DNA of 40,366 nt, taken from positions 1-40,366 of the forward strand of contig QKCF01000079.1 in NCBI GenBank assembly GCA_003246935.1, given 5' to 3'. Shown here piece after piece: positions 15,880 to 37,533 of this stretch (positions are counted from its first letter, which is position 1; each line of letters opens with the position of its first letter). A program made the translations under genes and the position numbers. The stretch comes from Sunxiuqinia sp. (GTDB lineage Bacteria > Bacteroidota > Bacteroidia > Bacteroidales > Prolixibacteraceae). The notes under the pieces are model-generated. The model had not been told where the DNA came from, ran no database searches, and saw only the letters and a list, made by a program, of their open reading frames with translations.

Positions 15880-17535
15880 ATGAACTACATAAAATTCTCT
15901 TTATTTTCTCGATCTTTTGTCACAATAGCGATGATGTACATATTGGTTAGCTGTGGATTAAAAGATTTGCCTAAAGATAATTCATTGTCTGAGAGATTGA
16001 CCGAGATAGAAGGGGAAATGTTTCACAATGCTGAAAACCTGGATTCTTTAATAAATGGATTAGATACCACAAACCTCTCACCGATTGCAGCAGCAAGAAT
16101 AAATACGATAAAGGGATTAGCGCAATATAATAAGGAAGAATATCGAAATAGCATTTCATCCATTGAAAAAGCGGAACTGGTTTTTATTGAGGCCAAAGAC
16201 GAATATCATCTCCATATTAGCCGGCTGGTAAAGGCATTTGCTTTCGAACTCCTCCAATTAGAAGGTGTTGCATTGGAAATGTACGTTGACTGTGATGCCT
16301 ATTTTAGCACTAATGGATTTACCACTTTGAGATTCTATTCTTCCCTTGGCCTTTTAAGATATAGCAATCTTATCGGAATCGACGGAGAAGAACTGAAGAA
16401 GAGAATTCAAGAAGACTCCGAAAAATTAAAGGATCCTTTATACGACGGGCTATTCTATGCGACACTTGCTTTTATAGAAAAAAACCAAACTCTCCAAATT
16501 GATTATACTCAAAGAGCGATTGAATCCTTTTCAAAAGGAGACTATTGGGCCAAGGTATATAAATGGGAACTTAACCTTCTGTATAAGATGATGGAGAAAG
16601 ACCATTCAGAAAAGGTGCAGAAATATTACGATCAATTTACAACCAAGAAGTACTCACATACACCTACTTTAAACGAAAGGCTGCGCTATAAATTTGCTCA
16701 AGCTTTTTTGTATATCAAACAAAAAAAGTTTGACGATGCGATTAAAATAGCGATTGAAGTCTTAAACGAAGCCGATAAGGCTAATGATACCAGAGCTATG
16801 AATGAGTGCCTGCAGAATTTGGTTTTTCTGTATGTAAAAACCGGCAACTATAAAAAAGCCTTTGAAATGAGAGAAAAGTTTGTCGTGTTAGATTCCAAAC
16901 GGGTTAGTGAACTGAAACGAAATCAATTATTTGCTTTAGGTGCTCACTACAAATTTTCCGAGCTTCAAAAAGACAAATCTAATCTTAAGCTGAAAGTTCA
17001 ACGCAGTATCCTGATTATAATAGTAGTTAGTTTTCTATCACTTAGCCTGGTCATATTGGGATGGCAACTGCTTCAACGGGATAAGCGTACACGAGAGAAA
17101 TTGCAAAAGGAGAAGATGGAAATTCAAGGGCAAATTGATATTTTACTTTCATCATTTCGGAAATCAGAAAGCGACAACAAACAATTAATTAACCAAATGG
17201 AGGATGTGAAAAGTCGGTATAACAAATCGATCCGAATCTCCGAATTCTTAAGTTCTGTCGAAAATCGAGAGATTAAAAACTGGATGGAATTTGAAGTCCA
17301 CTTTTCGGTATTGCTCCCAAGGTGGGTGGAGAGTTTAAAGCAAAAAGCTCCTGGTCTTACGCCAACGGATATCAGATACTGTATGTGTATCTATTTTAAT
17401 TTGAGCAATTACGTGATCTCTGATTTGTGTAATGTAAGTAATGATGCTATTAAAAGCGCAAAAAAAAGAATCCGTGACAAGTTGTTACTAGCAGACGCGA
17501 CTGAAATCTACCTCTTCCTGAAAGCTATTGAATAA
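15880..17535 (+). CDS. Membrane-anchored TPR protein with C-terminal HTH (putative regulator)
   Basis: Lipobox-like ILVSCGL; TPR-like helices; TM SILIIIVVSFLSLSLVILGWQLL; coiled coil; C-terminal LTPTDIRYCMCIYFNLSNYVISDLCNVSNDAIKSAKKRIRDKL (LuxR-like HTH). Confidence 0.75.
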   Translation: MNYIKFSLFSRSFVTIAMMYILVSCGLKDLPKDNSLSERLTEIEGEMFHNAENLDSLINGLDTTNLSPIAAARINTIKGLAQYNKEEYRNSISSIEKAELVFIEAKDEYHLHISRLVKAFAFELLQLEGVALEMYVDCDAYFSTNGFTTLRFYSSLGLLRYSNLIGIDGEELKKRIQEDSEKLKDPLYDGLFYATLAFIEKNQTLQIDYTQRAIESFSKGDYWAKVYKWELNLLYKMMEKDHSEKVQKYYDQFTTKKYSHTPTLNERLRYKFAQAFLYIKQKKFDDAIKIAIEVLNEADKANDTRAMNECLQNLVFLYVKTGNYKKAFEMREKFVVLDSKRVSELKRNQLFALGAHYKFSELQKDKSNLKLKVQRSILIIIVVSFLSLSLVILGWQLLQRDKRTREKLQKEKMEIQGQIDILLSSFRKSESDNKQLINQMEDVKSRYNKSIRISEFLSSVENREIKNWMEFEVHFSVLLPRWVESLKQKAPGLTPTDIRYCMCIYFNLSNYVISDLCNVSNDAIKSAKKRIRDKLLLADATEIYLFLKAIE

Positions 17536-17612
17536 CAGCCCCTTAATATTCACACAACAAAATACACCCTTTTACACCCCAGCCAGAAATAGAATTTTTA
17601 TTCGTGGTATTT

Positions 17613-17620
17613 TACATTTG
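17613..17620 (+). promoter_or_regulatory. TAnnTTTG -7 like element upstream of first small leader peptide
   Basis: TACATTTG, 42 bp before the ATG at 17663. Confidence 0.4.
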
Positions 17621-17662
17621 TAGCAGATCAGAAAAAACTCATTACTACTAACTAAAATTACG

Positions 17663-17890
17663 ATGAAAAAGAAAATTACTATTTCTTTGTTCGGTGCGTT
17701 TGTTCTTTTAAACTTCTTTATATCCCCGAATTATCGTTCGGAAAGTCACGCACAAATAAATTTGGAGATGCTATCAGCATGCGCAGACGAATCGGTTGAA
17801 GAACCACCGGGGCAAATATATCCTTCGCCTTCTAGCGAAGTTCCATCAGAATCCTGGTTTTGGGAGTTGTTAAATACACTCTTCGAATAA
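17663..17890 (+). CDS. Small NVEALA-like leader peptide 1
   Basis: MKKKITISLFGAFVLLNFFISPNYRSESHAQINLEMLSACADESVEEPP...: short exported peptide with LEMLSACADE at the leader/core boundary. Confidence 0.55.
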   Translation: MKKKITISLFGAFVLLNFFISPNYRSESHAQINLEMLSACADESVEEPPGQIYPSPSSEVPSESWFWELLNTLFE

Positions 17891-17972
17891 AAGTTCAGGT
17901 TTACACAACTGCTATTTTCCGGCAAGAGTTTAATTGGTTTTATCAAACTAACTAATATCGTTGTAACATAAT

Positions 17973-19922
17973 ATGGGGGGTAAGACTGTATCATATTATC
18001 TGCATGTTTTCATCATAATTGTGCTATCGGCAGGGTTCATAGCTCCGTTAATCGTAGATTCAGAGTTGTATGATTCTACACGAATGGGTAAGATATTCTT
18101 TTTTTCTAGGTGGATGATTGTGTTTGTTATTGCATGCTTACCTATCTACTTTATGAATAAGGCGCAGCAAATTGATAAATTGACAATTGCTGTTTTGGCT
18201 TGGGGTATTTGGATCTTAGTCAGAGGGAAAAACGGAGGTATCTGGTATGATGAAAAATTCTTTTGGTTCTCTGGCTGTTTTGTCTTTTATTTTCTGGCAA
18301 CCACATTACTAAAAGAAATAACAACCCGAGGCTGGGAACAACTTATACGAATCCCGTTAGTAGTAATAGTCCTTGTTGCGGCAGTTGAGGCCGCACTAGG
18401 GATACTACAACTTTACGGGTTGGCCCCCATTTACCACGGGCAGTTTAAAATTTCGGGGCACTTTTTTAACCCGGCGCCCTATGCGGGCTTCCTGGTAGCT
18501 TCACAGCCCTTTGCTTTGCTACTTTCGTCAGTTAGGCCTGATACGATAATCAATAAAATTATGCACTGGCTGGGCTATATGTCGGTTTGCTTGATACTGG
18601 TTGCGATCCCTTCCACCCGGAGCCGGGCGGCTTACCTGGGCTTGGGAGCTGTGTTGCTGGTTTGGCTTTTGTTCCGCTATCATCCCTGGATATATATTAA
18701 GCGCGTTTTAAGCACCCAGCTAAAGAGACAACTAGCATTCTTTATAATTCCATTGATTTCTATTATTCTCCTCACAGGTCTTTACCTGCTAAAAAAGGAC
18801 TCAGCTTCGGGACGCCTGTTAATATGGAAAGTAGCAGTACATACAATTGCAGAACGTCCATTATCTGGACATGGTTTTAACACGACACAAGCCACTTTTG
18901 CGCCAGTTCAAGCAGATTACTTTGCTGCTGGTAATGGAACCGAAAATGAAAGTATATTGGCAGGTAGTGTCCGTTGGGCTTTCAATGAATTTTTACAAAC
19001 CGCCTCAGAAACGGGCATTGTCGGGCTTGTGCTATTTTTATTAGTTACTGCATACGCCTTGTTTTTTAAAATACGGATATCACCACAATCTCGAAAACAT
19101 CGATTAATGATAGGCGCCGCCCGCTCATCAATGTCTGGAGTCTTGGTTTTTAGCTGCTTTTCGTATCCGTTTTATTCAATGCCCATTACATTACTATTCT
19201 TTTTCTCGTTAGCTGGGTTAACAACGTTGCATTTCACTGGGGCAAATGAGTTGAAAACAGTTTTAAATATATTCCAGAGGCTTCCAATTTTCGTTGGTAT
19301 TTTGCTGTTGACTATGTTCTATATTGTGGAAACTCCAAAGCTAAAACAAGCTTATGGGCAGTGGAATAAAGCAGAGCAATCATACAAGATAGGAGCTTAC
19401 CGGAAAGCCAATGAAGGCTTTGCCAAAGCCTATCCTACTTTGGTCCATAATGGCTTGTTTTTACAACAGTACGGTAAAAGTTTGGAGATGGAAGAAAGAT
19501 ATCCGCAAGCTATAGCCTTGCTAAAACAGGCCACAAAATATTATAACGACGAATTTACAGCGATTACCCTAGGTAATTGCTACCGGAGCATAGGAGATCA
19601 CGACAAGGCTGAAATGCAATATCGGCTGGCTGCCAACGTCGTCCCTAATAAATTTTACCCTCTGTATTTGCTGGTTAAACTATATGACGAAACGGGACAA
19701 ACAGAAAAGGCAAGAGCAATGGCAAGGGAGCTACTAAATAAAGAAGTAAAAGTTCCCTCGAAGGCTATTGAAGAAATAAAAGCAGAAATGGAGAGACTAA
19801 TACATAAAAATGCAAGCTTGCAAAATTGGGGCGAACTTGAAGGGAGTCAGCAAGAAGTCTGTACGCCTCAAACCGTTTTCTGCCTGCACCCTTCCTATTT
19901 AAGAAAGGAGGTGGCAGTATGA
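17973..19922 (+). CDS. O-antigen ligase (Wzy_C)-like polytopic membrane protein with C-terminal TPRs
   Basis: Many TMs; ISGHFFNPAPYAGFL, STRSRAAYLGLG, GHGFNTTQATFAPVQADYF; C-terminal TPR AEMQYRLAANVVPNKFYPLYLLVKLYDETGQTEKAR. Confidence 0.82.
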   Translation: MGGKTVSYYLHVFIIIVLSAGFIAPLIVDSELYDSTRMGKIFFFSRWMIVFVIACLPIYFMNKAQQIDKLTIAVLAWGIWILVRGKNGGIWYDEKFFWFSGCFVFYFLATTLLKEITTRGWEQLIRIPLVVIVLVAAVEAALGILQLYGLAPIYHGQFKISGHFFNPAPYAGFLVASQPFALLLSSVRPDTIINKIMHWLGYMSVCLILVAIPSTRSRAAYLGLGAVLLVWLLFRYHPWIYIKRVLSTQLKRQLAFFIIPLISIILLTGLYLLKKDSASGRLLIWKVAVHTIAERPLSGHGFNTTQATFAPVQADYFAAGNGTENESILAGSVRWAFNEFLQTASETGIVGLVLFLLVTAYALFFKIRISPQSRKHRLMIGAARSSMSGVLVFSCFSYPFYSMPITLLFFFSLAGLTTLHFTGANELKTVLNIFQRLPIFVGILLLTMFYIVETPKLKQAYGQWNKAEQSYKIGAYRKANEGFAKAYPTLVHNGLFLQQYGKSLEMEERYPQAIALLKQATKYYNDEFTAITLGNCYRSIGDHDKAEMQYRLAANVVPNKFYPLYLLVKLYDETGQTEKARAMARELLNKEVKVPSKAIEEIKAEMERLIHKNASLQNWGELEGSQQEVCTPQTVFCLHPSYLRKEVAV

Positions 19923-19970: not shown

Positions 19971-20228
19971 ATGAAAAATAAAATCAAAATTATTGGAGTC
20001 TTTTCTGCAGTTTTATTAGCTGTGTGTAGCCTATATGTTTCTTCTTCGAATACTCCTAACGGATATTCCTCATTGTCACAATTATTGTTTATCAATTCCG
20101 CACATGCAGAATGTGACGAAGGAACTCGAACTATTTCGAATGCAATAGAAGATACTGATGCCAACGATTGTTGTATCTGTTGGAGCGATCCAGATCCCTA
20201 TAGTAGTAGCACTTGTAGCTGCGGTTAG
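19971..20228 (+). CDS. Small NVEALA-like leader peptide 2 with Cys-rich core
   Basis: MKNKIKIIGVFSAVLLAVCSLYVSSSNTPNGYSSLSQLLFINSAHAECDEG...DCCICWSDPDPYSSSTCSCG; six Cys after AHAE. Confidence 0.65.
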   Translation: MKNKIKIIGVFSAVLLAVCSLYVSSSNTPNGYSSLSQLLFINSAHAECDEGTRTISNAIEDTDANDCCICWSDPDPYSSSTCSCG

Positions 20229-20534: not shown

Positions 20535-21671
20535 ATGAGAAAAGTAAACATTATTGGAATCTTTATAATTACAACTCTTTGGGCTGGATGCAAAATGAGA
20601 GACGATAAAATGAGATCAGATGTCCCTGTACTTAAGCCTGTTGAGCAAAGTGTAGATAAGATAAAGACTCAATTTAGAACTGTAGCAACGCCTATACCTT
20701 TAGAAACTAATAAAGAATGTGTAGTTGGATATATTACAAATATTCATGCAACTAAAGACAGGATTTATATTATGGATAGAGATAATTTCTATTTATTTGA
20801 CAGTGATGGGAAGTTTTTGAAAATTCTTCCGAAAGGTAAAGGACCAGGAGAAATAACTCGACCTATGACATTTAAGGTTAACAAAGACAAAGATGAAATC
20901 ATTATCTTGGATAACGGCATCTGGATAAATTTGTTTACGTTAGATGGAACGTTTAAAAAGCGATATCAATTAAAAATGTCTATTCGAGATGTAATAAGAA
21001 TTTCAGACACAAAACTATTATTACATACGGGTTATTCTGGGAATAATCAGGACCATCTTTTATATATCTTCGATACCCAGCAAGAAGGTATAACTGCAAA
21101 ATATATATCCAATGAAGATTTGATTCTAAAAGACTTTGCAATCACTACATACAATAATTTTTCAGAGTATAGAGACACTATGTATTACCATTCATCTAAT
21201 TTACAAACCATTTATAAAATAGATGATTTGAAGCCTGCTCCAGTTTTTGATATTGATTTTCAGAATTTTATGCCTCCTACATCGTTCGTGAAGAAATTCA
21301 CAAAAACTAGAAAATTCCTTCAAGAATCAAAGGAAGGAGGCTATATCGGAGCTATTACATATTTCGATAAGTTTAATAAATTTAGTCTATTGGGCGTAAA
21401 GCACAAGAAATATAATTGTGGATTTATAGATAATAGCCAATCTGATATATTTTTAACCAATACTAGTGAGTTGTTCAATTTACCCGACATCCCTTCCCTA
21501 ACAATTCCTAAATGTCAAAGTGACTCCTCGTTATATTTTGTTATAGAACAATATGAACTATTAAAATCCATAAAACAGAATCAAACTAAATTGCCCACAT
21601 GGCTGGAAGGAGTTCACTTAAGTACTAATGACAATCCTATTATCCTTAAATTGGATATTTTAGATATATAA
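20535..21671 (+). CDS. 6-bladed beta-propeller lipoprotein-like protein
   Basis: Lipobox-like TLWAGCKM; IPLETNKECVVGYITNIHATKDRIYIMDRDNFYLFDSDGKFLKILPKGKGPGE, the propeller signature found next to NVEALA peptides. Confidence 0.8.
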   Translation: MRKVNIIGIFIITTLWAGCKMRDDKMRSDVPVLKPVEQSVDKIKTQFRTVATPIPLETNKECVVGYITNIHATKDRIYIMDRDNFYLFDSDGKFLKILPKGKGPGEITRPMTFKVNKDKDEIIILDNGIWINLFTLDGTFKKRYQLKMSIRDVIRISDTKLLLHTGYSGNNQDHLLYIFDTQQEGITAKYISNEDLILKDFAITTYNNFSEYRDTMYYHSSNLQTIYKIDDLKPAPVFDIDFQNFMPPTSFVKKFTKTRKFLQESKEGGYIGAITYFDKFNKFSLLGVKHKKYNCGFIDNSQSDIFLTNTSELFNLPDIPSLTIPKCQSDSSLYFVIEQYELLKSIKQNQTKLPTWLEGVHLSTNDNPIILKLDILDI

Positions 21672-21675
21672 AACC

Positions 21676-22326
21676 ATGCAAAAAAACAAGGCTATTTATT
21701 TATTCTCTGGGATAATTGCATTATTCATATTTGTAGTATTCGGAGTATATTGTATATCAACAATACAAAAAGAACGGAATACGGCAGATATTATTGAAAA
21801 GGACTACAATTCTATCTCACAACAAAACGAATACCTCCAAAGCTTTATTAAAATACAATTGAGCATTGGCAACAGTAGTATTGGGCAAAAAGTAGATGGA
21901 AACATCAGATTAACCCGCGAGGATGGAAAATTATTCAAACTAGGAGAAATCGATTTTAAAAATTATTTATTGATTTTTAGAATGGGCGAAAAGCATTGTT
22001 CAATTTGTGTAGAAAGAGCTTTGGAAAGAGTTTTAAGTAGTGGAATTGATGTTCCATATCAGAATGTGGTCATCCTGGCTTCATACAGCAATATCAGACA
22101 CATTAGATATCTAAAACGAATTAATAAGATTAAATGGCAAATATATAATTTGGATGAACCAATTAGAATCAATGCGGAAGAATACAATTATCCTTATTTT
22201 TTATTAATAAATAAGAACTACGAGGTTGTACATACCTTTTTCCCCGAAAAGGAGCTGCCCGAGTATACAAAACATTTCCTAGACGGAGTTAAAAATATAT
22301 TATACATTAAACATGAAAATAGCTAG
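21676..22326 (+). CDS. Membrane-anchored thioredoxin-like protein with CxxC
   Basis: N-terminal TM; NYLLIFRMGEKHCSICVERALERVLSSG; YFLLINKNYEVVHTFFP C-terminal strand pattern. Confidence 0.55.
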   Translation: MQKNKAIYLFSGIIALFIFVVFGVYCISTIQKERNTADIIEKDYNSISQQNEYLQSFIKIQLSIGNSSIGQKVDGNIRLTREDGKLFKLGEIDFKNYLLIFRMGEKHCSICVERALERVLSSGIDVPYQNVVILASYSNIRHIRYLKRINKIKWQIYNLDEPIRINAEEYNYPYFLLINKNYEVVHTFFPEKELPEYTKHFLDGVKNILYIKHENS

Positions 22327-22547: not shown

Positions 22548-22566
22548 TAAAGTTCAAAGAACTTTA
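22548..22566 (+). promoter_or_regulatory. Perfect hairpin ending on the start codon of the first RND gene
   Basis: TAAAGTTC-AAA-GAACTTTA, 8-bp arms, last base is the A of ATG (22566). Confidence 0.5.
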
Positions 22567-25500
22567 TGCACACTTTAAATAGTTCTGTAAGATATTTCTC
22601 TTATTTCACTATCATAACCACTTTCATAGCCCTGACAATAGTTGGTTTGGGCGTAATACCCCTGCTTAACCTACGTCTATATCCAAGTAAAGCTAAGCCG
22701 GGAGTTACGGTAAGATACCAGATGCAGGGAGCCAGTGCGCTGGTCATAGACAGCGAGGTCACATCCCGACTGGAAGGGCTTTTGTCGCGGGTTGAGGGTC
22801 TGAAAAAGCTTGCTTCGCGGACTTCGGGCGGTAGTGGCTGGATCAGTTTGGAGCTGGATAAGGGGACGGATATGGATGCCGTCCGTTTCGAAGTTGCTAC
22901 TTTAATCCGGCAGGTCTATCCTTCTTTACCAGAACGGGTGAGCTACCCGGAAATCCGGACTAGTCGCCCGGACGAGGAGGAAAAGGCGGAAACAATGCTA
23001 ACCTTTAGTATGAGCGGCCCAGGGCAGATTAGTGAAATCGGCAATTATGCGAATGAATCTCTGGCACCCAGCCTATCGGAACTGCCAGAGATAAACGGCG
23101 TTTTTGTTTACGGGGCCAATTCGCGCCGGATTGATTTGGTGTATAATAAGGAATTGCTCAAAAATATCGGACTTTCCGTTTCTGAGCTTGCATTGCAAAT
23201 CCGGGAATATTATTGCCAGTCCAACCTGGGGAGCGTCGTTGAACAGTCTTTTTCAGGTGATGAAACCTTTGTGCCGGTGACCTTTTCGGGTTGGGCAGCC
23301 GACAAGTTTTACCCGGACGATATCCGTATCAAGCACGAGGGACGTTTGTTCAAATTAACAGACCTGGTTGAGGTGAAAGAGCGGGAAAACGAACCGCAGA
23401 GTTTTTACCGGATCAACGGACTGAATACGGTCAACATCGTGGTGCAATCGGCGCCGGGTACTAACCAGATTGTCACAGCCGGTTTGGTTAAGGACAAGGT
23501 CGGGAAAATGCGTGCCCAATTACCACAGGGTTACAGTATTAATGTGAGTTACGACAGTTCGGTGCAACTGAAAAAGGAACTCAACAAGATTATTCTGCGC
23601 ATCCTTTCGTCGGTGTCCATTTTGTTACTTTTTGTGCTGCTGGTCAGCCGAAGCGGGCGTTACCTGTTGGTAATCAGTTTCAGTATCCTGGCAAACATTT
23701 TGATAGCCTTTATTTTTTACTATTTGCTGGGCGTCGAAATCCACATGTACTCGCTGGCCGGAATCACTATTTCGCTGGGCATCCTCATCGATAATACCAT
23801 CGTTATGGCCGACCACCTGCGCAACGGGCATGGCATTAGCGTGTTCCGGGCCATCCTGGCGGCGACTTTTACAACTATGGGGGCATTGGTGGCCGTTTTC
23901 TTTTTGGACGAAGATTTGCAACTTCGGCTCATTGATTTTACCTGGGTCATCATGATTAACCTGGCGGTATCGCTGCTGGTGTCCCTGTTTTTTATCCCGG
24001 CCCTGCTCGACAAAATGCGCCTTCGGAAAGTAAAAACCAAGAGCACCTACCGGCACATCCGCCGGAAAGTGAAACTGACCCGTTTTTACGGTAAGTCAAT
24101 CCGGCTGATGGCGCGGTTCCGCTGGGCGCTGTTGCTGCTTGCCGTTCTTGGTTTTGGGCTTCCGGTTTATATGTTACCAGCGTATTTGCAGGAAGGCCAT
24201 TGGTACTCTGGCTGGTACAACAAGACTTTGGGCGCCCAATTTTATCTCGAACATATCAAACCGGTTACTGACGTCGCGCTTGGGGGAACGTTGCGCTTGT
24301 TTACCGAGAAAGTACAGCACCAAGCCCTTAGTAGCTCGAACCGCCGGACATGCATTAATATTTCGGCAACGATGAATGATGGCAGCACACTGGAACATAC
24401 CAACGAAGTGTTTGAGAAACTGGAGAGTTTTCTGGCACAATACGATGAAATAGAACAGTTTGAAACCCGGATCTATAGTCCTTCATCGGCGCAGATAACG
24501 GTGTTGTTCAAGCCGGAATACGAATTTGGAGGTTTTCCCTTTACATTGAAAAGCGAAGCAGAAAGTAAAGTCGTTGATTTAGGGAGCGCCGATTGGACTG
24601 TGAGTGGAGTTGGGCGGGCTTTTGACAATTCGCTAAACGAAGGTTACCGCAACAGCCGCATCCAGCTGTATGGCTACAACTTGGAAGCGCTAAAGGGCTA
24701 TGCCCAAAAGATAAAACACTACCTGGAAGAAATCCCCCGGGTGGAAGAAAATTCTATTTTTATTAACGGACGCTCGACCTCAGGGGGCAATATCCACCGC
24801 GAGTATTATTTGGATTTAGATCTGGATAAGATGCGCCGTACCGGTATTTCGCAAGGGACGGTGCTGAGGAACTTGTCAGACCTTTCACGGGAGGAAGACA
24901 AAGTTATATCTGTTTACCGGGAAAGGGAACAACAGAACGTTTATCTGTTACCGGAGCAAACTTCGCTCCCCGATTTCTGGGAAATCAACAACCGACCCCT
25001 TGACTTGAGTAACAGCCGGGTAACCCGATTAAACGGTTTGGGTAGTTTCAGCAAAGAACGGGAGCAAGACCTGATCAACAAAGAAAACATGGAATACACC
25101 ATGGTCGTCGAGTACAACTTTATCGGGAGTTACGGGCAGAAAGAATATATCATCGGACAAGTCGAGAAGCGCCTGGTACAGGAGCTTCCGGTTGGTTACC
25201 GGATTAAGCAACAGTATTTCCGGGGAGGGAGCTGGATGGACGAAAAGACGGATCATACACAGGTATGGCTTCTTTTGCTGGTCGCAGCTATTATCTTTTT
25301 TATCTGCGCTATTGTCTTCGAGTCCCTGTTGCAGCCCCTGGCCGTAATCATCATGGTGCCGCTGTCATTTATCGGGGTCTTTCTCACCTTTTGGTATTTC
25401 GACCTCGGTTTCGACCAGGGAGGCTATGCTTCGCTGCTGCTCTTAAGCGGGTTGACGGTTAACTCAGCGCTGTATATTCTGAACGACCTGAACACTATGC

Positions 25501-25823
25501 GGAAACGTTTTGCCTGCCTCTCTCCTGTGAGGGCGTATCTGAAAGCTTACAATAACAAACTGGTGCCGGTGGTACTCACCCTTTTGTCGACTGTGCTGGG
25601 TCTGGCTCCTTTTCTTTCGGGGGGCAAGAAGGAAGCATTCTGGTTTAGTCTGGCTGCCGGTACCATCGGGGGACTTCTGTTCTCGATGGTGGCCATTGTG
25701 GTCATCCTCCCGCTGTTTGTGCGGGGAATTAAACCGAAGCGGTTAAGGAGTTTTAAATGGCTGAGGAGAAAAGCGACCCGGAAACAACTACGAAAAATTC
25801 TTTTTATAACGATAAAAAACTAA
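22566..25823 (+). CDS. Efflux RND transporter permease subunit 1
   Basis: 1085 aa RND architecture; ISLGILIDNTIVMADHLRNGHGISVFRAILAATFTTMGALVAVFF. Confidence 0.93.
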   Translation: MHTLNSSVRYFSYFTIITTFIALTIVGLGVIPLLNLRLYPSKAKPGVTVRYQMQGASALVIDSEVTSRLEGLLSRVEGLKKLASRTSGGSGWISLELDKGTDMDAVRFEVATLIRQVYPSLPERVSYPEIRTSRPDEEEKAETMLTFSMSGPGQISEIGNYANESLAPSLSELPEINGVFVYGANSRRIDLVYNKELLKNIGLSVSELALQIREYYCQSNLGSVVEQSFSGDETFVPVTFSGWAADKFYPDDIRIKHEGRLFKLTDLVEVKERENEPQSFYRINGLNTVNIVVQSAPGTNQIVTAGLVKDKVGKMRAQLPQGYSINVSYDSSVQLKKELNKIILRILSSVSILLLFVLLVSRSGRYLLVISFSILANILIAFIFYYLLGVEIHMYSLAGITISLGILIDNTIVMADHLRNGHGISVFRAILAATFTTMGALVAVFFLDEDLQLRLIDFTWVIMINLAVSLLVSLFFIPALLDKMRLRKVKTKSTYRHIRRKVKLTRFYGKSIRLMARFRWALLLLAVLGFGLPVYMLPAYLQEGHWYSGWYNKTLGAQFYLEHIKPVTDVALGGTLRLFTEKVQHQALSSSNRRTCINISATMNDGSTLEHTNEVFEKLESFLAQYDEIEQFETRIYSPSSAQITVLFKPEYEFGGFPFTLKSEAESKVVDLGSADWTVSGVGRAFDNSLNEGYRNSRIQLYGYNLEALKGYAQKIKHYLEEIPRVEENSIFINGRSTSGGNIHREYYLDLDLDKMRRTGISQGTVLRNLSDLSREEDKVISVYREREQQNVYLLPEQTSLPDFWEINNRPLDLSNSRVTRLNGLGSFSKEREQDLINKENMEYTMVVEYNFIGSYGQKEYIIGQVEKRLVQELPVGYRIKQQYFRGGSWMDEKTDHTQVWLLLLVAAIIFFICAIVFESLLQPLAVIIMVPLSFIGVFLTFWYFDLGFDQGGYASLLLLSGLTVNSALYILNDLNTMRKRFACLSPVRAYLKAYNNKLVPVVLTLLSTVLGLAPFLSGGKKEAFWFSLAAGTIGGLLFSMVAIVVILPLFVRGIKPKRLRSFKWLRRKATRKQLRKILFITIKN

Positions 25824-28512: not shown

Positions 28513-31500
28513 ATGGTAGAATTTCTTGTAAAAAGGCCTGTTGCCGTAATCATGACCTTTATTGCGTTCCTGATTTTAGGATTAGCAGCTATGAACCTGA
28601 TCCCGATCTCGTTATTGCCGGATATTGCGATCCCTGAAATCACCATCCAGGTCTCGGCGCCCGATAAACCTGTGAACGAGATGGAACAGAATTACATCCG
28701 CCCAATACGCCGCCAGATGTTGCAGCTCGGCCATCTTAACGATATTCAGAGCGTGGCCACCAATGAACAGGGCACAGTGCGGTTGACCTTTAAATACGGC
28801 ACCGATATTAATTACGCCTTTGTGGAGGTGAACGAGAAGATGGACGGTTTAATGCCTGCTATGCCTTCCGATTTCGAGCGTCCCCGTATCATCAAGGCAT
28901 CGGCTACTGATATCCCGGTATTCTACATGACCGTGATGCTTAAGCAGGAGTACGCCGATGAGCGCAAAGAGCGTTTTATGGAACTGAGCGAATTTTGCGA
29001 ACAAGTCATCAAAAAGCGGGTGGAACAACTTCCGGAAGTGGCTATGGTAGATATCAGCGGGATGGAGTATCCTGAAATCAGGATTTCTGCCGACCTGGAT
29101 AAGCTCCGGGTTTTGGGCATTGACTATAGTACCATTCAGTCGGCATTGGAAGAAAACAACATTTCGCTGGGCAATATCCGCGTACGCAACGGCATGTACG
29201 AGTTCAATGTAAAATATGCCACGCTGCTTAAAAACCGGCGCGACATTGAGCAGATCAGCATCCGCTCGGGCGACCGTATTTTTACATTGGGTGAACTGAC
29301 GAAAATTGAAGTTCGCCCCAAATCGGGCAAGGGCGTTTTTGTGGATAAAAAAGGGCAGGCCATCATCATGGCAGTCATTAAAAAATCGGATGCCCGGATG
29401 GAAGACCTGAAGGAACAGACCGGGAAACTAATGGACAACCTGAACGAAGATTATCCCCGTCTGCGCTTTGAGCTGTCGCGTAACCAGACTGAACTGCTGG
29501 ATTATTCCATTTCTAACCTTCAAAGCAGCTTGATAATTGGTGGTATCCTGGCCTTCCTGATCATGCTGCTTTTCCTGAAAGATTTAAAATCCCCCATCCT
29601 GATCGGTGTTTCCATCCCGGTCAGTTTGGTGGTTAGTTTGCTGTTCTTCTACTTGTTTAATTTGTCCATCAACATTATATCTCTCTCGGGGCTGATATTG
29701 GGTGTGGGAATGATGATTGACAATTCAATTATCGTCATCGATAACATTTCCCAGTATTATTCGGAAAACAGAAAAGGGGTGATCCAGGCGGCTATTGCCG
29801 GAACCAACGAGGTTATCCGCCCGCTGATCAGCTCGGTGCTGACAACCTGTGCCGTGTTTGTCCCGTTAATTTTTTTGAGCGGCATTGCCGGGGCTTTGTT
29901 TTACGACCAGGCTATGGCTATCACCATCGGGCTGGGCGCATCGCTGATTGTTTCCATCACCCTGATCCCCGTCCTGTACGCTGTTTTTTACAGCAGAACG
30001 GGAAAGAAGCCAAAAGCAAGGGTAGGTAAAAAGCCCAAAGCACTGCAGTGGATGCAGTTTTACCGGAATATAGAGAACAGCTATGCCCGGGGCTACGATT
30101 GGATTTTTGCAAACAGGCGATTATTTCTGCTGGGTACATTTTTACTATTATTGGGAGGGGGCTGGGCGTTTTCTGCTTTGACAAAAGAGCGTTTCCCGAG
30201 TTTTGAACAGACCGAAGCCGAAATTACGATCGACTGGAACCGGAACATTGGGGTGGATGAGAATCAAAGGCGCATGGAGGAGCTGAGGTCAGCAATAGAC
30301 AGCCTGACGGTGCAGTTTTCGTGTATGGTGGGCGAACAAAGCTTTATGCTGGAACAAGGTGATGTGCTGGGGGCATCGGAGGCCAAAATTTATTTTCAGG
30401 CTGAAAATGCTGCGGACAGGAAAGTTGCCTTGAATGAAGTCAGGCAGTGGATGACAGCCAATTACCCGGAAGCGCTCTACGAGGCGTCGCCCCCCGTAAC
30501 GGTTTTTGAAAAGATATTCGGGGATAACGAGTCTCCCCTGGAGGTGCGGTTGTGGACCGATGGCAGTAACCCTGTTCCCGACCCCGAAGTTTTGAATAAG
30601 ATCGCTGCCGACATCACGAAATTGTCGGCCAAATCGCCGGAGAAAAAAGCGCCTTTGCAGGAATATTATGAGATCAGCCCCCGTTTTGACCGGATTAAGC
30701 TCTACGATGTCCCGATAGCCCGTTTGACCAGCGTCCTGAAAAAATCGCTGAACCGGTTGTCGCTGTTTACCCTTCGGCAGGGGCAGTACGAAGTGCCGGT
30801 GGTACTGACCGGCAAACAGCGGGACATCTATGCCGTGATCCGTTCTGTCCGCGTACAGAGCAACGCCAAAGGGCAGGTTCCGGTGGACCAATTGGTCACA
30901 GTAACGCGGATTGCAGGCTACAAACTGTTGCAGGGCGGTAAGGAGGGGGTGTACGCTTCACTGTCGTTTGATATTCCTGACAATGAATTGGGCGTGGTAC
31001 AGAAGCAGATTCAGGAGGTATTGAAAAGCTACCCTAACGTGCATGTCAAATTTGCCGGTGCCTTATTTGCGAACCGCGAGCTGTTTAAAGAACTGGTCAT
31101 TGTGCTGGTTGTTGCTTTGCTGCTGCTCTATTTTATCCTGGCCTCGCAGTTCGAGTCGGTGCTACAACCCTTTATCGTTTTCATTGAAATCCCGATCGAT
31201 ATTGCCGGAGCCCTGCTTTTGCTGTGGCTTAGCGAAAACAGCCTGAACCTGATGAGTATGATCGGCATTGTGGTGATGACCGGGATTATCATCAACGACT
31301 CCATTTTAAAGATCGATACCATCAACGGACTGGTGCGCAGCGGGCAGCCGGTACTGGAAGCCATTCACATTGGTGGCCGCCGACGGCTGAAGCCAATCCT
31401 AATGACCAGCGCCACCACCATCCTGGCCATGGTGCCCTTCATGTGGGGGCACGATATGGGCTCGCGCCTGCAACAGCCACTGGCCTGGGCCATTATTGGC

Positions 31501-31578
31501 GGGATGACCATTGGCACCTTTGTCAGTTTGTACTTTGTGCCTCTGGCCTATTACTATTTAAACCGGAATAAAAAATGA
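28513..31578 (+). CDS. Efflux RND transporter permease subunit 2
   Basis: MVEFLVKRPVAVIMTFIAFLILGLAAMNLIPISLLPDIAIPEITIQV...GLILGVGMMIDNSIIVIDNISQYY...GIVVMTGIIINDSILKIDTIN. Confidence 0.95.
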   Translation: MVEFLVKRPVAVIMTFIAFLILGLAAMNLIPISLLPDIAIPEITIQVSAPDKPVNEMEQNYIRPIRRQMLQLGHLNDIQSVATNEQGTVRLTFKYGTDINYAFVEVNEKMDGLMPAMPSDFERPRIIKASATDIPVFYMTVMLKQEYADERKERFMELSEFCEQVIKKRVEQLPEVAMVDISGMEYPEIRISADLDKLRVLGIDYSTIQSALEENNISLGNIRVRNGMYEFNVKYATLLKNRRDIEQISIRSGDRIFTLGELTKIEVRPKSGKGVFVDKKGQAIIMAVIKKSDARMEDLKEQTGKLMDNLNEDYPRLRFELSRNQTELLDYSISNLQSSLIIGGILAFLIMLLFLKDLKSPILIGVSIPVSLVVSLLFFYLFNLSINIISLSGLILGVGMMIDNSIIVIDNISQYYSENRKGVIQAAIAGTNEVIRPLISSVLTTCAVFVPLIFLSGIAGALFYDQAMAITIGLGASLIVSITLIPVLYAVFYSRTGKKPKARVGKKPKALQWMQFYRNIENSYARGYDWIFANRRLFLLGTFLLLLGGGWAFSALTKERFPSFEQTEAEITIDWNRNIGVDENQRRMEELRSAIDSLTVQFSCMVGEQSFMLEQGDVLGASEAKIYFQAENAADRKVALNEVRQWMTANYPEALYEASPPVTVFEKIFGDNESPLEVRLWTDGSNPVPDPEVLNKIAADITKLSAKSPEKKAPLQEYYEISPRFDRIKLYDVPIARLTSVLKKSLNRLSLFTLRQGQYEVPVVLTGKQRDIYAVIRSVRVQSNAKGQVPVDQLVTVTRIAGYKLLQGGKEGVYASLSFDIPDNELGVVQKQIQEVLKSYPNVHVKFAGALFANRELFKELVIVLVVALLLLYFILASQFESVLQPFIVFIEIPIDIAGALLLLWLSENSLNLMSMIGIVVMTGIIINDSILKIDTINGLVRSGQPVLEAIHIGGRRRLKPILMTSATTILAMVPFMWGHDMGSRLQQPLAWAIIGGMTIGTFVSLYFVPLAYYYLNRNKK

Positions 31579-31749: not shown

Positions 31750-32019
31750 ATGAAAAAGTTAATACTATTAGGAAGCATAGCTCTGTTGGGATGTTTAGCC
31801 TACGTACAAGGCAATTCAATAATTTTAAACTCACTACCGTCAAAAATTTCCCTGAGTAATATATTGTTAATATCGAATGCTGAAGGTGAGGATTTGCCTC
31901 CTGGTTACATTCTATTAGAAGAATATGGACTTATAGCTGAGGGTTACTATGAAGGTGAATATTGGATAGAACCAGAATATGGCTGCGTAGATGCTAATGA
32001 TAAGTGTTTACATCTTTAA
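31750..32019 (+). CDS. Small NVEALA-like leader peptide 3
   Basis: MKKLILLGSIALLGCLAYVQGNSIILNSLPSKISLSNILLISNAEGEDLPPGYILLEEYGLIAEGYYEGEYWIEPEYGCVDANDKCLHL. Confidence 0.6.
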   Translation: MKKLILLGSIALLGCLAYVQGNSIILNSLPSKISLSNILLISNAEGEDLPPGYILLEEYGLIAEGYYEGEYWIEPEYGCVDANDKCLHL

Positions 32020-32091: not shown

Positions 32092-33330
32092 ATGAAATTT
32101 CATATTATGAAGATAAAAAAAAACTATTTCTTTATTCGAGTCATATTGTTTTTGGTATTTGTTAGCTCTTCCTGTAAATCGGATACTGATTTAAAATCTT
32201 TACCTGTGATAGAGATTTCACCTCAATTTTCTGATAACTCTTTTGTATTTGAAGATGTTTTTCAGTCAGTAGATATTATACCATTAGAAACTAACTCTGA
32301 ATGTCTTATTGGAGGGATTACAAAATTAGTTGAAGCATATGATAGTTATTTTATTATGGATAGAGTAAATAACATTGTTGCAAAATTTGATAATAAAGGC
32401 AAATTTATTACTAGACTGGGCGGAGTGGGAAATGGTCCAGGAGAGTATCTTAAGATTGAAGATTTACTAGTAGACAGAGACAACCGAAACATAAAATTGT
32501 ATGATGTCAGGGGGAGAAAAATAATCATTTACGGACTTGATGGTACTTATATAAAGGAGTTCAGATTGGACGCATTTTTGAAATCAATTGCTCTTGCGGA
32601 GAATGGCTATTATTGGGGTTTTATAGGAAATGTTACCAATTCCAACGAAATTCAAGGTAAAAAAGGGGGGGAGTTGAAATTTATTAAGTTTGATGAGAAG
32701 GGGAAAATATTGGCGAAGATTTTTGGGCAGAAAACCGCTGAAATTCATCTTTCTTTTTATGAACACATGTCTCCACAACAAGATGGTAGTATATCATTTG
32801 TAGAACCGCTTAATTGTCAGATTTTCAACCTGCGTGACAATAAGGTATCTTCTAGCTATGATATTAAATTTAATAGCTTTTCCGTCCCAGATAATATCCG
32901 AAATGTATTAAACAAAAGAAGAACGCCGGAAACTGTAACACAGAAGGATGCATTTAGTGATGCTAATAAGAACTATGTTCTAGGGTTTGTTAAGTTTTAT
33001 GAAAATAGTAATTGGATAGTCATGCAATATTCAGTTAAGTACAGGTTTCAATTTGCTTTTTATTATAAGCCTTCCGGTAAGCTTTTTGAGTCGAGCGGAC
33101 TACCTTGGTCTACAATAAATGCCAACTTATTTTTTACGCCATCTTATATAGATGATGAGTTTGTGTATTCTAGTTCATCCGCCTTTTACTTACATGAACG
33201 ATATAAAAAAGAACAGAGCGATAATAAAGTAGGGAAAGAAAGAATTAGAAGTTGGAATAAATTATTAAAGAATATAGGAATAAATGATAATCCAATCATA
33301 TTTAAATACAAATTGCAAAAACGCATTTAG
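32092..33330 (+). CDS. 6-bladed beta-propeller lipoprotein
   Basis: Lipobox VSSSCKSD; DIIPLETNSECLIGGITKLVEAYDSYFIMDRVNNIVAKFDNKGKFITRLGGVGNGPGEYLKIEDLLVD. ATG at 32107 is an alternative start. Confidence 0.88.
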   Translation: MKFHIMKIKKNYFFIRVILFLVFVSSSCKSDTDLKSLPVIEISPQFSDNSFVFEDVFQSVDIIPLETNSECLIGGITKLVEAYDSYFIMDRVNNIVAKFDNKGKFITRLGGVGNGPGEYLKIEDLLVDRDNRNIKLYDVRGRKIIIYGLDGTYIKEFRLDAFLKSIALAENGYYWGFIGNVTNSNEIQGKKGGELKFIKFDEKGKILAKIFGQKTAEIHLSFYEHMSPQQDGSISFVEPLNCQIFNLRDNKVSSSYDIKFNSFSVPDNIRNVLNKRRTPETVTQKDAFSDANKNYVLGFVKFYENSNWIVMQYSVKYRFQFAFYYKPSGKLFESSGLPWSTINANLFFTPSYIDDEFVYSSSSAFYLHERYKKEQSDNKVGKERIRSWNKLLKNIGINDNPIIFKYKLQKRI

Positions 33331-33331
33331 G

Positions 33332-33868
33332 ATGTATAGTTTCTTTAAATTATGTATTGTGGTCCTAGTAGTTAGTGGATTAATGGTGGCCTGCACTAAG
33401 GAATCCAGACAAGAAATGCAACTTCGCCAAAATATTAATAAAGAGTTGCGCATGGATATATTCCCTTCTGTTGTTAGTCAGCAAAAGGTTCAGGCGTATG
33501 ATGATTTTAGAAGGGAATACAAATATATTTCAGTAGTATTTTTGAGAAAGGGGTGTAAACCTTGCGATTTAAAAATTGCTGAGTGGCAGGAAAGAATTGA
33601 AAAAATTAAAGAACTTGAAGATTATTCAGTTCTTTTTATTTTTCAGGGGTACAGCTATAAAGAGATATCACAGTTAGATACAACGCGTTCTCTTAATTTT
33701 ATCTGTGATATACATTGCAGGTATTTAATCTATAATAGAGATATTCCAGAATGGATATTGGACAATACAATACTTATCGATGCTAGAAATCGAATAAAAC
33801 TTGTTGGTGATCCATTTAGTACTGATGAAAAAACTGAACAATTATATTCAATTATTAAAATGGATTGA
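33332..33868 (+). CDS. Thioredoxin-like lipoprotein with CxPC
   Basis: In-frame ATG 33332 (MYSFFKLCIVVLVVSGLMVACTKES) is preferred over 33284 because it removes most overlap with the upstream CDS; ISVVFLRKGCKPCDLKIAEW. Confidence 0.65.
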   Translation: MYSFFKLCIVVLVVSGLMVACTKESRQEMQLRQNINKELRMDIFPSVVSQQKVQAYDDFRREYKYISVVFLRKGCKPCDLKIAEWQERIEKIKELEDYSVLFIFQGYSYKEISQLDTTRSLNFICDIHCRYLIYNRDIPEWILDNTILIDARNRIKLVGDPFSTDEKTEQLYSIIKMD

Positions 33869-33985
33869 TGAATGTCATTTTCTTAATGTGTGTGGGAGAA
33901 GACAATAAAATTGTTTTCTAATTATTCTCCTACAGGTGAAGAATTTCACAAATAATTATGCACTTTTTAAAAGTTGATTATTGTA

Positions 33986-34396
33986 ATGAAAAACATACTG
34001 TTTAATTTGGTTCTTTTTATACTAACCTCATGCTCTTCAACTCCAACCGGAAGTGATGCTATAGTCCATTTTAATGACTTGGACTATAATTTTGCATCTA
34101 TTTCTTATATGGAAAATGCCGAGCACAATTTTGAGTTCATTAATACAGGTGGCTATCCTTTAGTTATTTATGACGTAAAAACCTCCTGCGGCTGTACGGT
34201 GCCGGAATGGACAAAGAAACCTATAAAACCAGGTGGCACAGGGGAAATCAAGATTAAATACGATGCTGATTTTCCAGGAGTGTTCCATAAAACCATCAAA
34301 GTGTATTACAACGGGAAAGATTCACCCAAAGAACTGAGCATAAGAGGAGAAGTGGAGTACCCGGATGATTTGGAAGGGACTCTGGATGAGAAATAA
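33986..34396 (+). CDS. DUF1573-family lipoprotein
   Basis: MKNILFNLVLFILTSCSS lipobox; HNFEFINTGGYPLVIYDVKTSCGCTVPEWTKKPIKPGGTGEIKIKYDADFPGVFHKTIKVYYN. Confidence 0.9.
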   Translation: MKNILFNLVLFILTSCSSTPTGSDAIVHFNDLDYNFASISYMENAEHNFEFINTGGYPLVIYDVKTSCGCTVPEWTKKPIKPGGTGEIKIKYDADFPGVFHKTIKVYYNGKDSPKELSIRGEVEYPDDLEGTLDEK

Positions 34397-35573
34397 AATG
34401 ATTGCGGTAATGGGCGGACTTATCCTGTTGGTAGGCTTTCTTACAAGGCTGCTATGGCTGATCCTTTTGCTGGCTTTGGTCATCGGGGTCTATTTGCTGA
34501 TCAATAAGCTAAAAATTGTTCGGAAACCTGTGTGGCTGGGCAGGGGGATAAAATCCGTGTTCATGTTTATATTCGTTTTTTGTGTAGCTATTTCTGTGCG
34601 GCTATTTTTGTTCGAAGTATTTTCGATTCCAAGCGGCTCGATGGAGAATACGTTATTCCCGGGTGATATTATTCTGGTAAATAAATTAACAGTGGGGCCC
34701 AAAATGCCTCGTTCTCCTTTTGAGATTCCGTGGATAAACATGATCTGTGCTCAAAATAAAAAGGCTTGGTCCCGGCGGAACGAGGTGTGGTGGAAGTACC
34801 TAAGACTTAAAGGGATATCTACGGTTCAACGAAATGATGTGGTTGTTTTTCGCCATCCTTATTCAAGGCGACGAGACTTTTTCCTTGTAAAACGCTGTGT
34901 TGGCCTTCCCGGCGATACGGTCCTCATTGACAATTCCACAGTTACAATTAACCGGAATATTCTTGGTGAAGCTCCGGATGCGAAGAAAATATACGATACC
35001 TGGCTAAAACTCTCGAACAATGTTGACCAAACTTTGAAACAAGAGGAAATAGAAATTCTCCCGGGAAATTATTTCGGTAAGAACACAACGGAGTACTTAC
35101 GTTTAAATTTGAGTGCGAAACAGAAAAATACACTTCAAAAGTACAATTTCATCGATTCGATACGAACAGAGCTAATTCCTCATCATGAAGACAATTATGT
35201 GTATAATAAAGACAAAACGATAGACTGGACAATAGCTGATTTTGGACCATTTATTATCCCTGCCAAGGGGATGACTCTTTTATTAACAGAAAAGAATTTC
35301 GCCATTTACAGAAGTGTCATTTCCCGATTGGAAAAAGAAAAATTAGAATTTATTGATGGCGAGTTCTATTTAAAAGGAAAACAAACCGACACGTTTACTT
35401 TTAAACATGATTATTACTTCATGTTAGGCGACAACCGAAATTTCTCAAACGATTCGAGGTTTTGGGGAGTGGTTCCTGAAGAAGAGATCGTCGGTAAGGC
35501 CAGTCTGATCTTATTCAGCACCACACAAAAAAACAAGAATGCTTCAAAAAGAATTTTTAAACCAATAATCTAG
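34386..35573 (+). CDS. Signal peptidase I (S26)
   Basis: FSIPSGSMENTLFPGDIILVNKLTVGPKMPRSPFEIPW (catalytic Ser), VKRCVGLPGDTVLID (catalytic Lys), MLGDNRNFSNDSRFWGVVPEEEIVGKA. In-frame ATG at 34386 preferred over 34365. Confidence 0.93.
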   Translation: MRNKMIAVMGGLILLVGFLTRLLWLILLLALVIGVYLLINKLKIVRKPVWLGRGIKSVFMFIFVFCVAISVRLFLFEVFSIPSGSMENTLFPGDIILVNKLTVGPKMPRSPFEIPWINMICAQNKKAWSRRNEVWWKYLRLKGISTVQRNDVVVFRHPYSRRRDFFLVKRCVGLPGDTVLIDNSTVTINRNILGEAPDAKKIYDTWLKLSNNVDQTLKQEEIEILPGNYFGKNTTEYLRLNLSAKQKNTLQKYNFIDSIRTELIPHHEDNYVYNKDKTIDWTIADFGPFIIPAKGMTLLLTEKNFAIYRSVISRLEKEKLEFIDGEFYLKGKQTDTFTFKHDYYFMLGDNRNFSNDSRFWGVVPEEEIVGKASLILFSTTQKNKNASKRIFKPII

Positions 35574-35592
35574 TTGTAAAACCTAAAAAAGT

Positions 35593-37533
35593 ATGAAGGG
35601 AATATCTCTGTTTATCTTTTGTTTGTTTCTTATTGCGGAAGCATGTACACCCAAGAACATTAAATTCTCAGACGAAGAAAAGGATTTATTTTTAAAATCA
35701 GCGCAAACAATAAATGACCAAATAATCTCCACTAAAATTACGCTATTGCGTTGCTCATTGGATTCAATCGAAACGATCAACAGGATAATTTCCGATTGTA
35801 GTTACAAGACAATTAATGATTCGTCAAAGAAAAAGCTAAATTCACTATTGTCAAATCAAACAGCAAAGCCCCATGTCCTTATTGACAAGGAGTATATATC
35901 CTCTAGCTTCCTTCAGGCCCAGGATAGTTTAGCTTTTTGGGCATTATCCAAGTCTGAGTGGAGAAATGAAATTTCTGTTAACGACTTTGTTGAGTATATT
36001 CTCCCTTACAAGCAAGAATTAGAATTTGTTGACAATTGGAGGGATTCGCTTTTATCAAGTTATTCCAATTTGGTTTTGCAACAACCTATTCTTAATAATT
36101 TAGATAGCCTGTACTCTTTTCTCCGGAATGGTATCTTTTGGTCTCTATCAAGCAAATTCGAAATAAAGAGTTTGTATCCGTCTGAAAGCAATTTTACGTG
36201 GCTTAATTACAGCGCAGAAGGTGATTGTGTTGCCAGAAGCCGATTAATGATTTATTACTTGAGAGCTGCTGGTGCTCCAGCGACTTTCGACTACATTCCA
36301 GCATGGGGAAATAGGACTTATGCCAGACATGCTTATGTAGGACTCGCAAACAAAAAGATTCAGGTTGACAAATTACTAGATAACGCTAATGACACATTGA
36401 ATTTAGTTGATAACCTGAATGCAGCGATGCAGCCCAAAAACAGACCTAATTTTCACAACGATGAGATTCCTCCTTACTTGACTATCCAGTACGAAAAAAC
36501 TATTCCTAAGGTCTATCGTCGGACATGGAGCATCCAGCCGGAAATAGCGCAAATAATGAATAGAGTGCCGAAAGATCAGTTATATACAAAATTAATTCAA
36601 CCCAATATGCTGGATGTAACCCAAGAATATTTAGTGACCGCAAGTATAGATATGTGGCATAATCCTTTTGAAGGGGTTAAAATCGGCTATCTCGCTACTT
36701 TCGATACTAATGGATGGCGCCCAGTTAGTTTTGCTCCATTTAATTCGCTCGGAGTTGCTCAATTTAGGAAACTGGGAAAAAATATTCTTTACATGCCGAT
36801 GGCCTGTAATAGGCAAGATTTGATTCCAATTGGTAGACCGTTTATTTTAGACAGCCTAGGTCGAAAACGTGAGTTAAAATGCAATATAAATAACAAAATC
36901 AATATGAAACTTTTTCGAAAATATCCACTGTTCTCATATACTGCATCTCATGTTAAAAGTTTAAAAGATTGCATTATTTGGGGCTCGAATGATCGGGAGT
37001 TTGAGACGAAGGAACAACTTGCCATAGTCGACAAATATCCCTTTTTTGTCGAGCAATTTGAAATTAAAACAAACAATAGATATCGGTTCATAAAATTAGG
37101 ATCGAGCAAAAATAAGAAAATCCGACTGGCCTATTTGACTTGCTTTTCGGATAGTGGTGGCAATAAAATACAACATTTTGATGCTCGTTTTCTTAACGGA
37201 GAATTAGATGAAAGATTCCAAAGACTATATGAAAATAATTTTGATAGTTATCTGGTAAGTAATGAATTTGTAATGGATCTAGGAAAGCCTACTCAGATAA
37301 CAGAAGTTCAATTGTGTCCAAGAAATGATACTAATTATATTATCCCAGGAAACAATTATGAATTATTATTCTGGAATGACGGATGGCATTCCGCTGGGCA
37401 AAAAAAGGCGACTGACTATTTTCTCAATTATGAGGACATCCCGTCTGAAACGATATATTGGCTTAGGTGTTTAACAGAAGGAAAAGAAGAAAGAGTATTT
37501 ACATACGAAAATGGGAAACAAATTTGGTGGTAG
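35593..37533 (+). CDS. Transglutaminase-like (cysteine-protease fold) lipoprotein
   Basis: Lipobox-like IAEACTP; WLNYSAEGDCVARSRLMIYYLRAAGAPATFDYIPAWGNRTYARHAYVGLANK (Cys and His motifs). Confidence 0.72.
   Translation: MKGISLFIFCLFLIAEACTPKNIKFSDEEKDLFLKSAQTINDQIISTKITLLRCSLDSIETINRIISDCSYKTINDSSKKKLNSLLSNQTAKPHVLIDKEYISSSFLQAQDSLAFWALSKSEWRNEISVNDFVEYILPYKQELEFVDNWRDSLLSSYSNLVLQQPILNNLDSLYSFLRNGIFWSLSSKFEIKSLYPSESNFTWLNYSAEGDCVARSRLMIYYLRAAGAPATFDYIPAWGNRTYARHAYVGLANKKIQVDKLLDNANDTLNLVDNLNAAMQPKNRPNFHNDEIPPYLTIQYEKTIPKVYRRTWSIQPEIAQIMNRVPKDQLYTKLIQPNMLDVTQEYLVTASIDMWHNPFEGVKIGYLATFDTNGWRPVSFAPFNSLGVAQFRKLGKNILYMPMACNRQDLIPIGRPFILDSLGRKRELKCNINNKINMKLFRKYPLFSYTASHVKSLKDCIIWGSNDREFETKEQLAIVDKYPFFVEQFEIKTNNRYRFIKLGSSKNKKIRLAYLTCFSDSGGNKIQHFDARFLNGELDERFQRLYENNFDSYLVSNEFVMDLGKPTQITEVQLCPRNDTNYIIPGNNYELLFWNDGWHSAGQKKATDYFLNYEDIPSETIYWLRCLTEGKEERVFTYENGKQIWW

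Follow-up and report, generated by a model that had tools for sequence, protein, structure and literature searches.

What does a set of genes accomplish in which three small peptides with N-terminal membrane leaders are placed among a transmembrane regulator, a ligase-like protein, propeller and thioredoxin-like proteins, a pump with two different permeases, a signal peptidase, and a transglutaminase-like protein? The question is raised by a 40,366-nt stretch of DNA from Sunxiuqinia sp. (contig QKCF01000079.1; the whole stretch is called the window below), in which 16 open reading frames (ORFs), all on the plus strand and with intergenic spacing of −47 to 306 nt, occupy positions 15880–37533. 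All 16 were confirmed, and the same-strand run described in an earlier note on this DNA, with its three leader peptides and the boundary strings quoted for them, is indeed present. We put at roughly one half the probability that this cluster is a Bacteroidota module producing, maturing, exporting, and sensing small secreted peptides. Co-inheritance, leader design, and specificity give good support to its description as a secreted-peptide module. Such clusters occur widely in Bacteroidota, also in human gut Bacteroides, and, if the reading is true, would represent an undescribed way to secrete, and perhaps sense, peptides.

Co-inheritance of the pump, the peptides, and the processing proteins

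The pump consists of a divergent HAE-1 permease of the resistance-nodulation-division (RND) family, RND1 (22566–25823, ACR_tran 3e-98), a membrane fusion (adaptor) protein, MFP (25830–26918, TIGR01730 1e-46), a TolC-type outer membrane factor, OMF (26961–28463, OEP 1.6e-31), and a second permease, RND2 (28513–31578, ACR_tran 1.6e-166). The G+C content of these genes is 0.48–0.50, compared to 0.31–0.42 in the surrounding ones. Families of the window proteins were assigned with Pfam and NCBIfam, and Pfam matches were obtained for each of the propellers, the Wzy-like ligase, both permeases, the MFP, the OMF, and the signal peptidase named in the earlier note.

Searched with an RND1 alignment, 85,462 species genomes yielded at least 80 loci across Bacteroidota. 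The inventory of the cluster is found again in genomes ranging from Prolixibacteraceae to Bacteroides fragilis and Phocaeicola vulgatus, comprising leader peptides, PF17170 propellers, CxxC thioredoxins, DUF1573 proteins, a second signal peptidase I, a transglutaminase-like protein, a WaaL-like ligase with tetratricopeptide repeats (TPRs), and RND1-MFP-OMF-RND2. A near-complete set is found in a genome of the same family (G111, loci L077/L078) and in two copies in another genome, G019 (L066, L067), with synteny in G111, G019, G015, and G094, as well as in genomes from the gut, P. vulgatus among them. The genes of P. vulgatus ATCC 8482 are arranged as NVEALA peptide, DUF1573, NVEALA peptide, propeller, transglutaminase-like protein, signal peptidase, followed by transglutaminase-like protein, ligase, MFP, RND2, OMF, and RND1, and the same neighborhood surrounds NVEALA genes in P. 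vulgatus, B. faecis, B. congonensis, and B. sp. 214. In B. thetaiotaomicron, an O-antigen ligase (BT0662), a propeller (BT0664), lepB (BT0667), and an RND adaptor (BT0669) are clustered; published iron-regulation data include BT0662, BT0663, BT0664, BT0667, and BT0669, with values of 0.11–0.44 in a second numeric column that is read here as significance (PMC10434189). Since this model strain carries the locus, direct testing is possible.

As a control, hidden Markov models (HMMs) based on the window's own family were used to score seven non-pump families in the 10-kb flanks of 52 RND1 loci from other genomes and of 40 further AcrB-type loci from six genomes. The pump is accompanied by two or more of these families in 28 of the 52 RND1 loci and in none of the 40 others (Fisher p=1.4e-9, a value that overstates independence, as the RND1 loci are related by descent). 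A signal peptidase is present near the pump in 23/52 loci and a ligase in 20/52, each compared to 0/40. The 10-kb flanks undercount the partners, because in Bacteroides the upstream flank is largely taken up by the pump genes. Leader peptides, processing and thiol proteins, and this specific RND1-MFP-OMF-RND2 pump are thus inherited together. The conserved co-occurrence postulated in the earlier note is borne out, with the RND core specific to such loci, and the comparison of RND1 loci does not show the core mostly without peptides.

An ordinary multidrug RND pump, with AcrZ-like small membrane peptides as accessories and separate operons as neighbors, would fit the HAE-1 type of the permeases, and small transmembrane (TM) peptides can modulate RND pumps. 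Such partners, however, are absent from the 40 control RND loci, which come from the same genomes, and the peptides adjoining a regulator are conserved in the mature part after A-x-A and not only in the membrane segment. As the signal peptidase, the thioredoxins, and the propellers would also be left unexplained, this explanation appears very improbable.

Leader peptides and the enzymes that may process them

Of 120 propeller genes, 58 have a gene for a small TM peptide immediately upstream. A set of 52 distinct peptides, encoded by small ORFs that have a membrane segment at the N terminus and were chosen purely by their position before propellers, contains A-x-A within residues 27–62 in 45 cases, compared to 10.2±2.6 after shuffling (maximum 19 in 1000 shuffles). 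The median leader length is 43, with predicted cleavage ~22 residues past the hydrophobic stretch, N, D, E, or Q predominate at +1, and the median remaining part has 50 residues. Of 44 propeller-adjacent peptides, 39 contain an even number of cysteines, and peptides with paired cysteines adjoin thiol proteins (thioredoxin-like, DUF1573). Two classes can be distinguished, a variable, Cys-rich one (pep2, pep3, and most NVEALA peptides) and a conserved one that adjoins a transmembrane regulator (pep1 in the window).

Pep1 (17663–17890, 75 aa, pepI class) has a leader TM segment and the boundary SACA/DES, followed by an acidic, Pro-containing linker and, at the C terminus, the amphipathic WFWELLNTLFE; its family has five members, each ending in an amphipathic aromatic helix, as defined by an HMM built with pep1 included. 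In pep2 (19971–20228, 85 aa, pepII class) the leader ends with INSAHA/E and the mature part contains 6 Cys; its leader scores 23.5 bits with an HMM built without it, compared to a maximum of 12.9 for 231 null leaders. Pep3 (31750–32019, 89 aa) has the leader end ISNAEG/ED and 2 Cys in the mature part. Its score of 7.0 bits is not above the null, and pep3 can be placed only by its position, 72 nt before the gene of propeller B, and by its A-x-G architecture. The earlier note took all three for NVEALA-like peptides; a search with PF14055, in turn, gave no match for pep1, pep2, or pep3, nor anywhere in their own genome. The NVEALA motif itself may be read as a signal peptidase cleavage site, with an acidic stretch following A-L-A. 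Both NVEALA peptides and the propellers next to them abound in gut Bacteroides, with no assigned role found: a literature search for NVEALA, PF17170, and related terms returned no functional paper, and a study of RiPP mining in Bacteroidales contains none of six cluster part names looked for (PMC10352776). They are now tied to a single module that has a signal peptidase and an RND pump of its own.

The signal peptidase I of the cluster (34365–35573, PF10502 2e-38) has the catalytic pair Ser92/Lys176, with Ser92 present in 39/42 and Lys176 in 42/42 homologues. The earlier note considered it unusually long. It has 402 aa from the first ATG, however, and a separate housekeeping copy elsewhere in the genome has 447 aa, so the cluster enzyme is a dedicated paralogue with Ser and Lys intact and not a long housekeeping enzyme; lengths in G111 and P. 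vulgatus are 448 and 475 aa. Length as a sign of specialization was accordingly rejected. The transglutaminase-like lipoprotein with a C-terminal F5/8-type domain (35593–37533) retains Cys212 and His246 in all 44 homologues. The Transglut_core match of the window copy is below threshold (E=0.02), but four of six homologues do match, the best at 5.7e-8. Its AlphaFold2 model is of low confidence (pLDDT 58), with Foldseek uninformative. Between the signal peptidase and transglutaminase-like genes B. congonensis encodes a ~630-aa GtaA-type protein (PF16335, PF17168; L249:6858-8744), and B. faecis has a protein of similar size in the same place (L250:4761-6641).

Thiol proteins are represented by a thioredoxin-like membrane protein A (21676–22326, CSIC, with CxxC in 20/20 homologues), a thioredoxin-like lipoprotein B (33284–33868, CKPC, assigned from sequence and position), and a DUF1573 lipoprotein (33986–34396, PF07610 9e-33) with the CxC motif SCGC, conserved in 36/36 homologues. 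Each of the first two follows a 6-bladed propeller lipoprotein, A (20535–21671, PF17170 2.8e-31) or B (32092–33330, PF17170 8.7e-48). The ligase (17973–19922, PF04932 7e-17) is predicted to have a WaaL fold and a C-terminal TPR domain, its AlphaFold2 model (pLDDT 80) being matched best in Foldseek by WaaL (7tpg, 8.8e-6). In G019, the ligase with its TPRs and the transglutaminase-like protein are fused in one open frame of 1321 aa (L065:8199-12155, contig C9).

This WaaL fold, together with the galactose-binding type of the F5/8 domain, raises the possibility that the cluster assembles a surface polymer. The peptides would then serve as carriers or anchors, receiving glycan from the ligase and being fixed to the surface by the transglutaminase-like protein, while the pump would move lipid or glycan precursors and the regulator would sense the state of the envelope. 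Conservation of the ligase in the module and its single fusion to the transglutaminase-like protein agree with such a role. The mature peptides, on the other hand, share no acceptor motif, several having few Ser or Thr, many loci contain peptides and pump without the ligase, and the paired cysteines and thioredoxin partners would find no explanation, making polymer assembly unlikely.

The variable peptides are found in arrays. Copies of a truncated RND1 5′ end with its spacer, 201–979 nt long and 88–97% identical, precede intact RND1, and in L149:867-10165, L131:2189-8465, and L133:360-7443 they separate peptide-propeller-thioredoxin units. This pattern suggests that homologous recombination at the pump gene lets the cassettes grow or be exchanged. 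In L123:2600-12397, a tandem of eight PF17170-type propeller lipoprotein genes precedes a TPR-TM-HTH (helix-turn-helix) regulator, and five tandem leader-peptide genes precede a propeller in Aestuariibaculum (L207:4926-6876). Antagonism, with the variable Cys-rich peptides as bacteriocin-like effectors, the propellers as immunity proteins, and the conserved peptide as an induction signal, would fit both the multiplication of these cassettes (to eight propellers and five peptides, respectively) and their recombination via repeated RND1 5′ ends, as well as the presence of hypervariable mature parts next to conserved leaders. Against it, no similarity to known bacteriocins was detected with Pfam or NCBIfam, and PADLOC reported nothing of note; we regard antagonism as quite unlikely.

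Regulators paired with conserved peptides

The regulator that precedes pep1, TPRreg (15880–17535), carries the invariant lipobox Cys25, TPRs (TPR_12 in 8/8 homologues), a TM segment at ~376–394 according to hydropathy, and a C-terminal LuxR/sigma4-like HTH (GerE, 7e-4, in one homologue). A pepI gene directly follows four of the eight TPRreg genes. TPRreg is rare, because a search of 393 genomes of the order found the window copy alone at 1e-30.

An unrelated protein with TM segments and a winged HTH (TM-wHTH, PF00486) is often encoded next to the NVEALA gene in gut Bacteroides, arranged in 22/23 cases as TM1, ~170 aa, TM2, and then the wHTH. An NVEALA gene lies no more than 1 kb from 25 of 29 such regulators in 11 gut genomes, the distance being mostly 66–254 nt, compared to a chance of 0.1–1.1% per regulator. 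The NVEALA subclass adjoining the regulators has C-x-G-x-G-S-V-D-C-P-x4-K-V in 22/22 peptides tested. The mean normalized pair score of the mature parts is 0.35 for these 22 peptides and 0.06 for 19 other NVEALA peptides; the motif was read off the first peptide set, and the pair score is independent of it. The gut TM-wHTH family, which includes the regulators at L245:13189-14187 and in L341–L366, is nearly confined to the neighborhood of this one conserved subclass, and a further partial regulator copy (G142, contig C88) adjoins a variable NVEALA peptide.

A conserved class of peptides is thus paired with a transmembrane one-component regulator. The strongest argument that a periplasm-facing regulator and a conserved peptide belong together comes from the convergence of the window and gut arrangements, whose regulators are unrelated.

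A direct repeat, TACACCC-TTT-TACACCCC (17563–17580), is a probable regulator site 5′ of pep1. The element TACACCCTTTTACACCCC lies upstream of pep1, ~33 nt before TACATTTG (17613–17620), which resembles, by consensus match, the Bacteroidota -7-like element and would belong to the pep1 promoter. Exact CACNCTTTTACACCCC occurs once in its own genome (G000), before pep1, and twice in the 6.2 Mb of G111, both times in the cluster; exact copies are confined to such loci in the three genomes scanned. With one mismatch it is found behind TPRreg of G003; when two mismatches are allowed, it occurs no more often than a reversed control pattern. In G003, an orphan TPR-TM-HTH gene is accompanied by a CACCC site before a gene for an 863-aa thioredoxin-domain protein, with no peptides (L122:5724-8527).

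Several observations weigh against the secreted-peptide reading. Eleven of the 52 RND1 loci show none of the seven families in the 10 kb read, to which the shortness of that read contributes. A mirror-tree test is positive, but the co-divergence of the peptide with the periplasmic domain (r=0.63) does not exceed that with the wHTH (r=0.66), and co-inheritance rather than binding is therefore shown. TPRreg is also present in G003, a genome without the peptide module, and, in G019 (L123), without an adjacent pepI; sensing of a peptide is consequently not proven, and G003 warns against considering the peptide as the only possible ligand. The same two copies, as well as the DNA site shared in G003 by the thioredoxin-domain protein, would suit a regulator that senses an unrelated periplasmic cue and merely controls the expression of the peptide. 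It is, however, exactly in the peptides adjoining a regulator that the mature part is strongly constrained, and we consider an unrelated cue somewhat unlikely.

Proposed mechanism and place among known systems

In the mechanism that we propose for a secreted-peptide module, precursors would enter the membrane via the N-terminal helix, and the module's own signal peptidase would cut them after A-x-A/G, ~22 residues beyond the helix. The thioredoxin-like and DUF1573 lipoproteins might then set the disulfides in a product of 30–70 residues, with a propeller lipoprotein as the dedicated partner of each variable peptide, and the RND pair with TolC would carry the product outside. The regulator may use its periplasmic domain to read the conserved peptide, pep1 in the window, or the state of that peptide's processing, and may act at the CACCC direct repeat to switch on the promoter of the peptide gene. 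The most likely role of the pump seems to be export, and that of the regulator sensing. The ligase and the transglutaminase-like protein could modify or anchor the peptides or their partners, which might include glycosylation and cross-linking of the peptides. As to the overall interpretation in the earlier note, co-occurrence, RND specificity, the signal peptidase paralogue, the paired-Cys peptides next to thiol proteins, and the regulator pairing hold, while PF14055 membership and the long signal peptidase do not.

To our knowledge, peptide signaling of this kind is not known in Bacteroidota. We can speculate, with the odds leaning somewhat against it, that Bacteroidota, gut commensals among them, communicate through a peptide system of their own, in which disulfide-bonded pheromones cut by a dedicated signal peptidase are exported by an RND pair and sensed by TPR-TM-HTH or TM-wHTH proteins, controlling the recombining cassettes.

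Upstream of the cluster, after dnaK, a mobilizable element (7273–15564) encodes Xis, a tyrosine recombinase, a MobB-type relaxase, and AbiEi/AbiEii. No att repeats were found, and no repeat of at least 12 nt is shared by its integrase-side end and 13.6–40.4 kb; a coupling of the cluster to this element by flanking repeats was accordingly rejected. An Rfam search gave no match. At 293–617, about three imperfect 105-nt tandem units (83–88% identity) are read as a repetitive ORF of 132 aa.

Comparison with known systems reveals partial similarities. In RRNPPA systems (PlcR, Rap, Rgg), as in four of the eight TPRreg cases here, the gene of a TPR regulator adjoins that of a small secreted peptide. 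The classical receptor is soluble and cytosolic, with an N-terminal HTH, and binds an imported cytosolic peptide, whereas the receptor of the cluster is membrane-spanning, with an invariant lipobox Cys, periplasmic TPRs, and a C-terminal HTH, and does not imply such an import. Double-glycine leaders and their PCAT ABC exporters share the conserved leader end and dedicated export, but the cluster has A-x-A/G in place of GG, a signal peptidase in place of a C39 peptidase, and RND in place of ABC proteins, no ABC gene being found by the Pfam scan within 15880–37533. PEP-CTERM/exosortase loci also combine an O-antigen-ligase-like protein with TPRs (TIGR03097 1.4e-9, below its cut-off), although the cluster has no exosortase and no C-terminal sorting signal is seen in it. 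HAE-1 RND pumps (AcrB, MdtBC) have the same permease fold, with two different permeases in MdtBC, yet the pump of the cluster is co-inherited with peptide and thiol genes and includes a specific RND1 family.

NVEALA peptides have a similar N-terminal membrane leader, a Leu-rich segment, an A-x-A leader end, and a Cys-rich C terminus, and their neighbors are likewise a propeller, DUF1573, signal peptidase, ligase, and RND proteins. The leader end is shared by pep1 (SACA) and pep2 (SAHA), while pep3 has A-E-G; none of the three peptides matches the NVEALA model, and a leader-to-leader profile match (hhalign, 92%) is suggestive at most. Since each of the NVEALA, RRNPPA, and double-glycine families differs from it in at least one feature tested, the cluster is filed as a variant of secreted-peptide systems that stands outside these three families.

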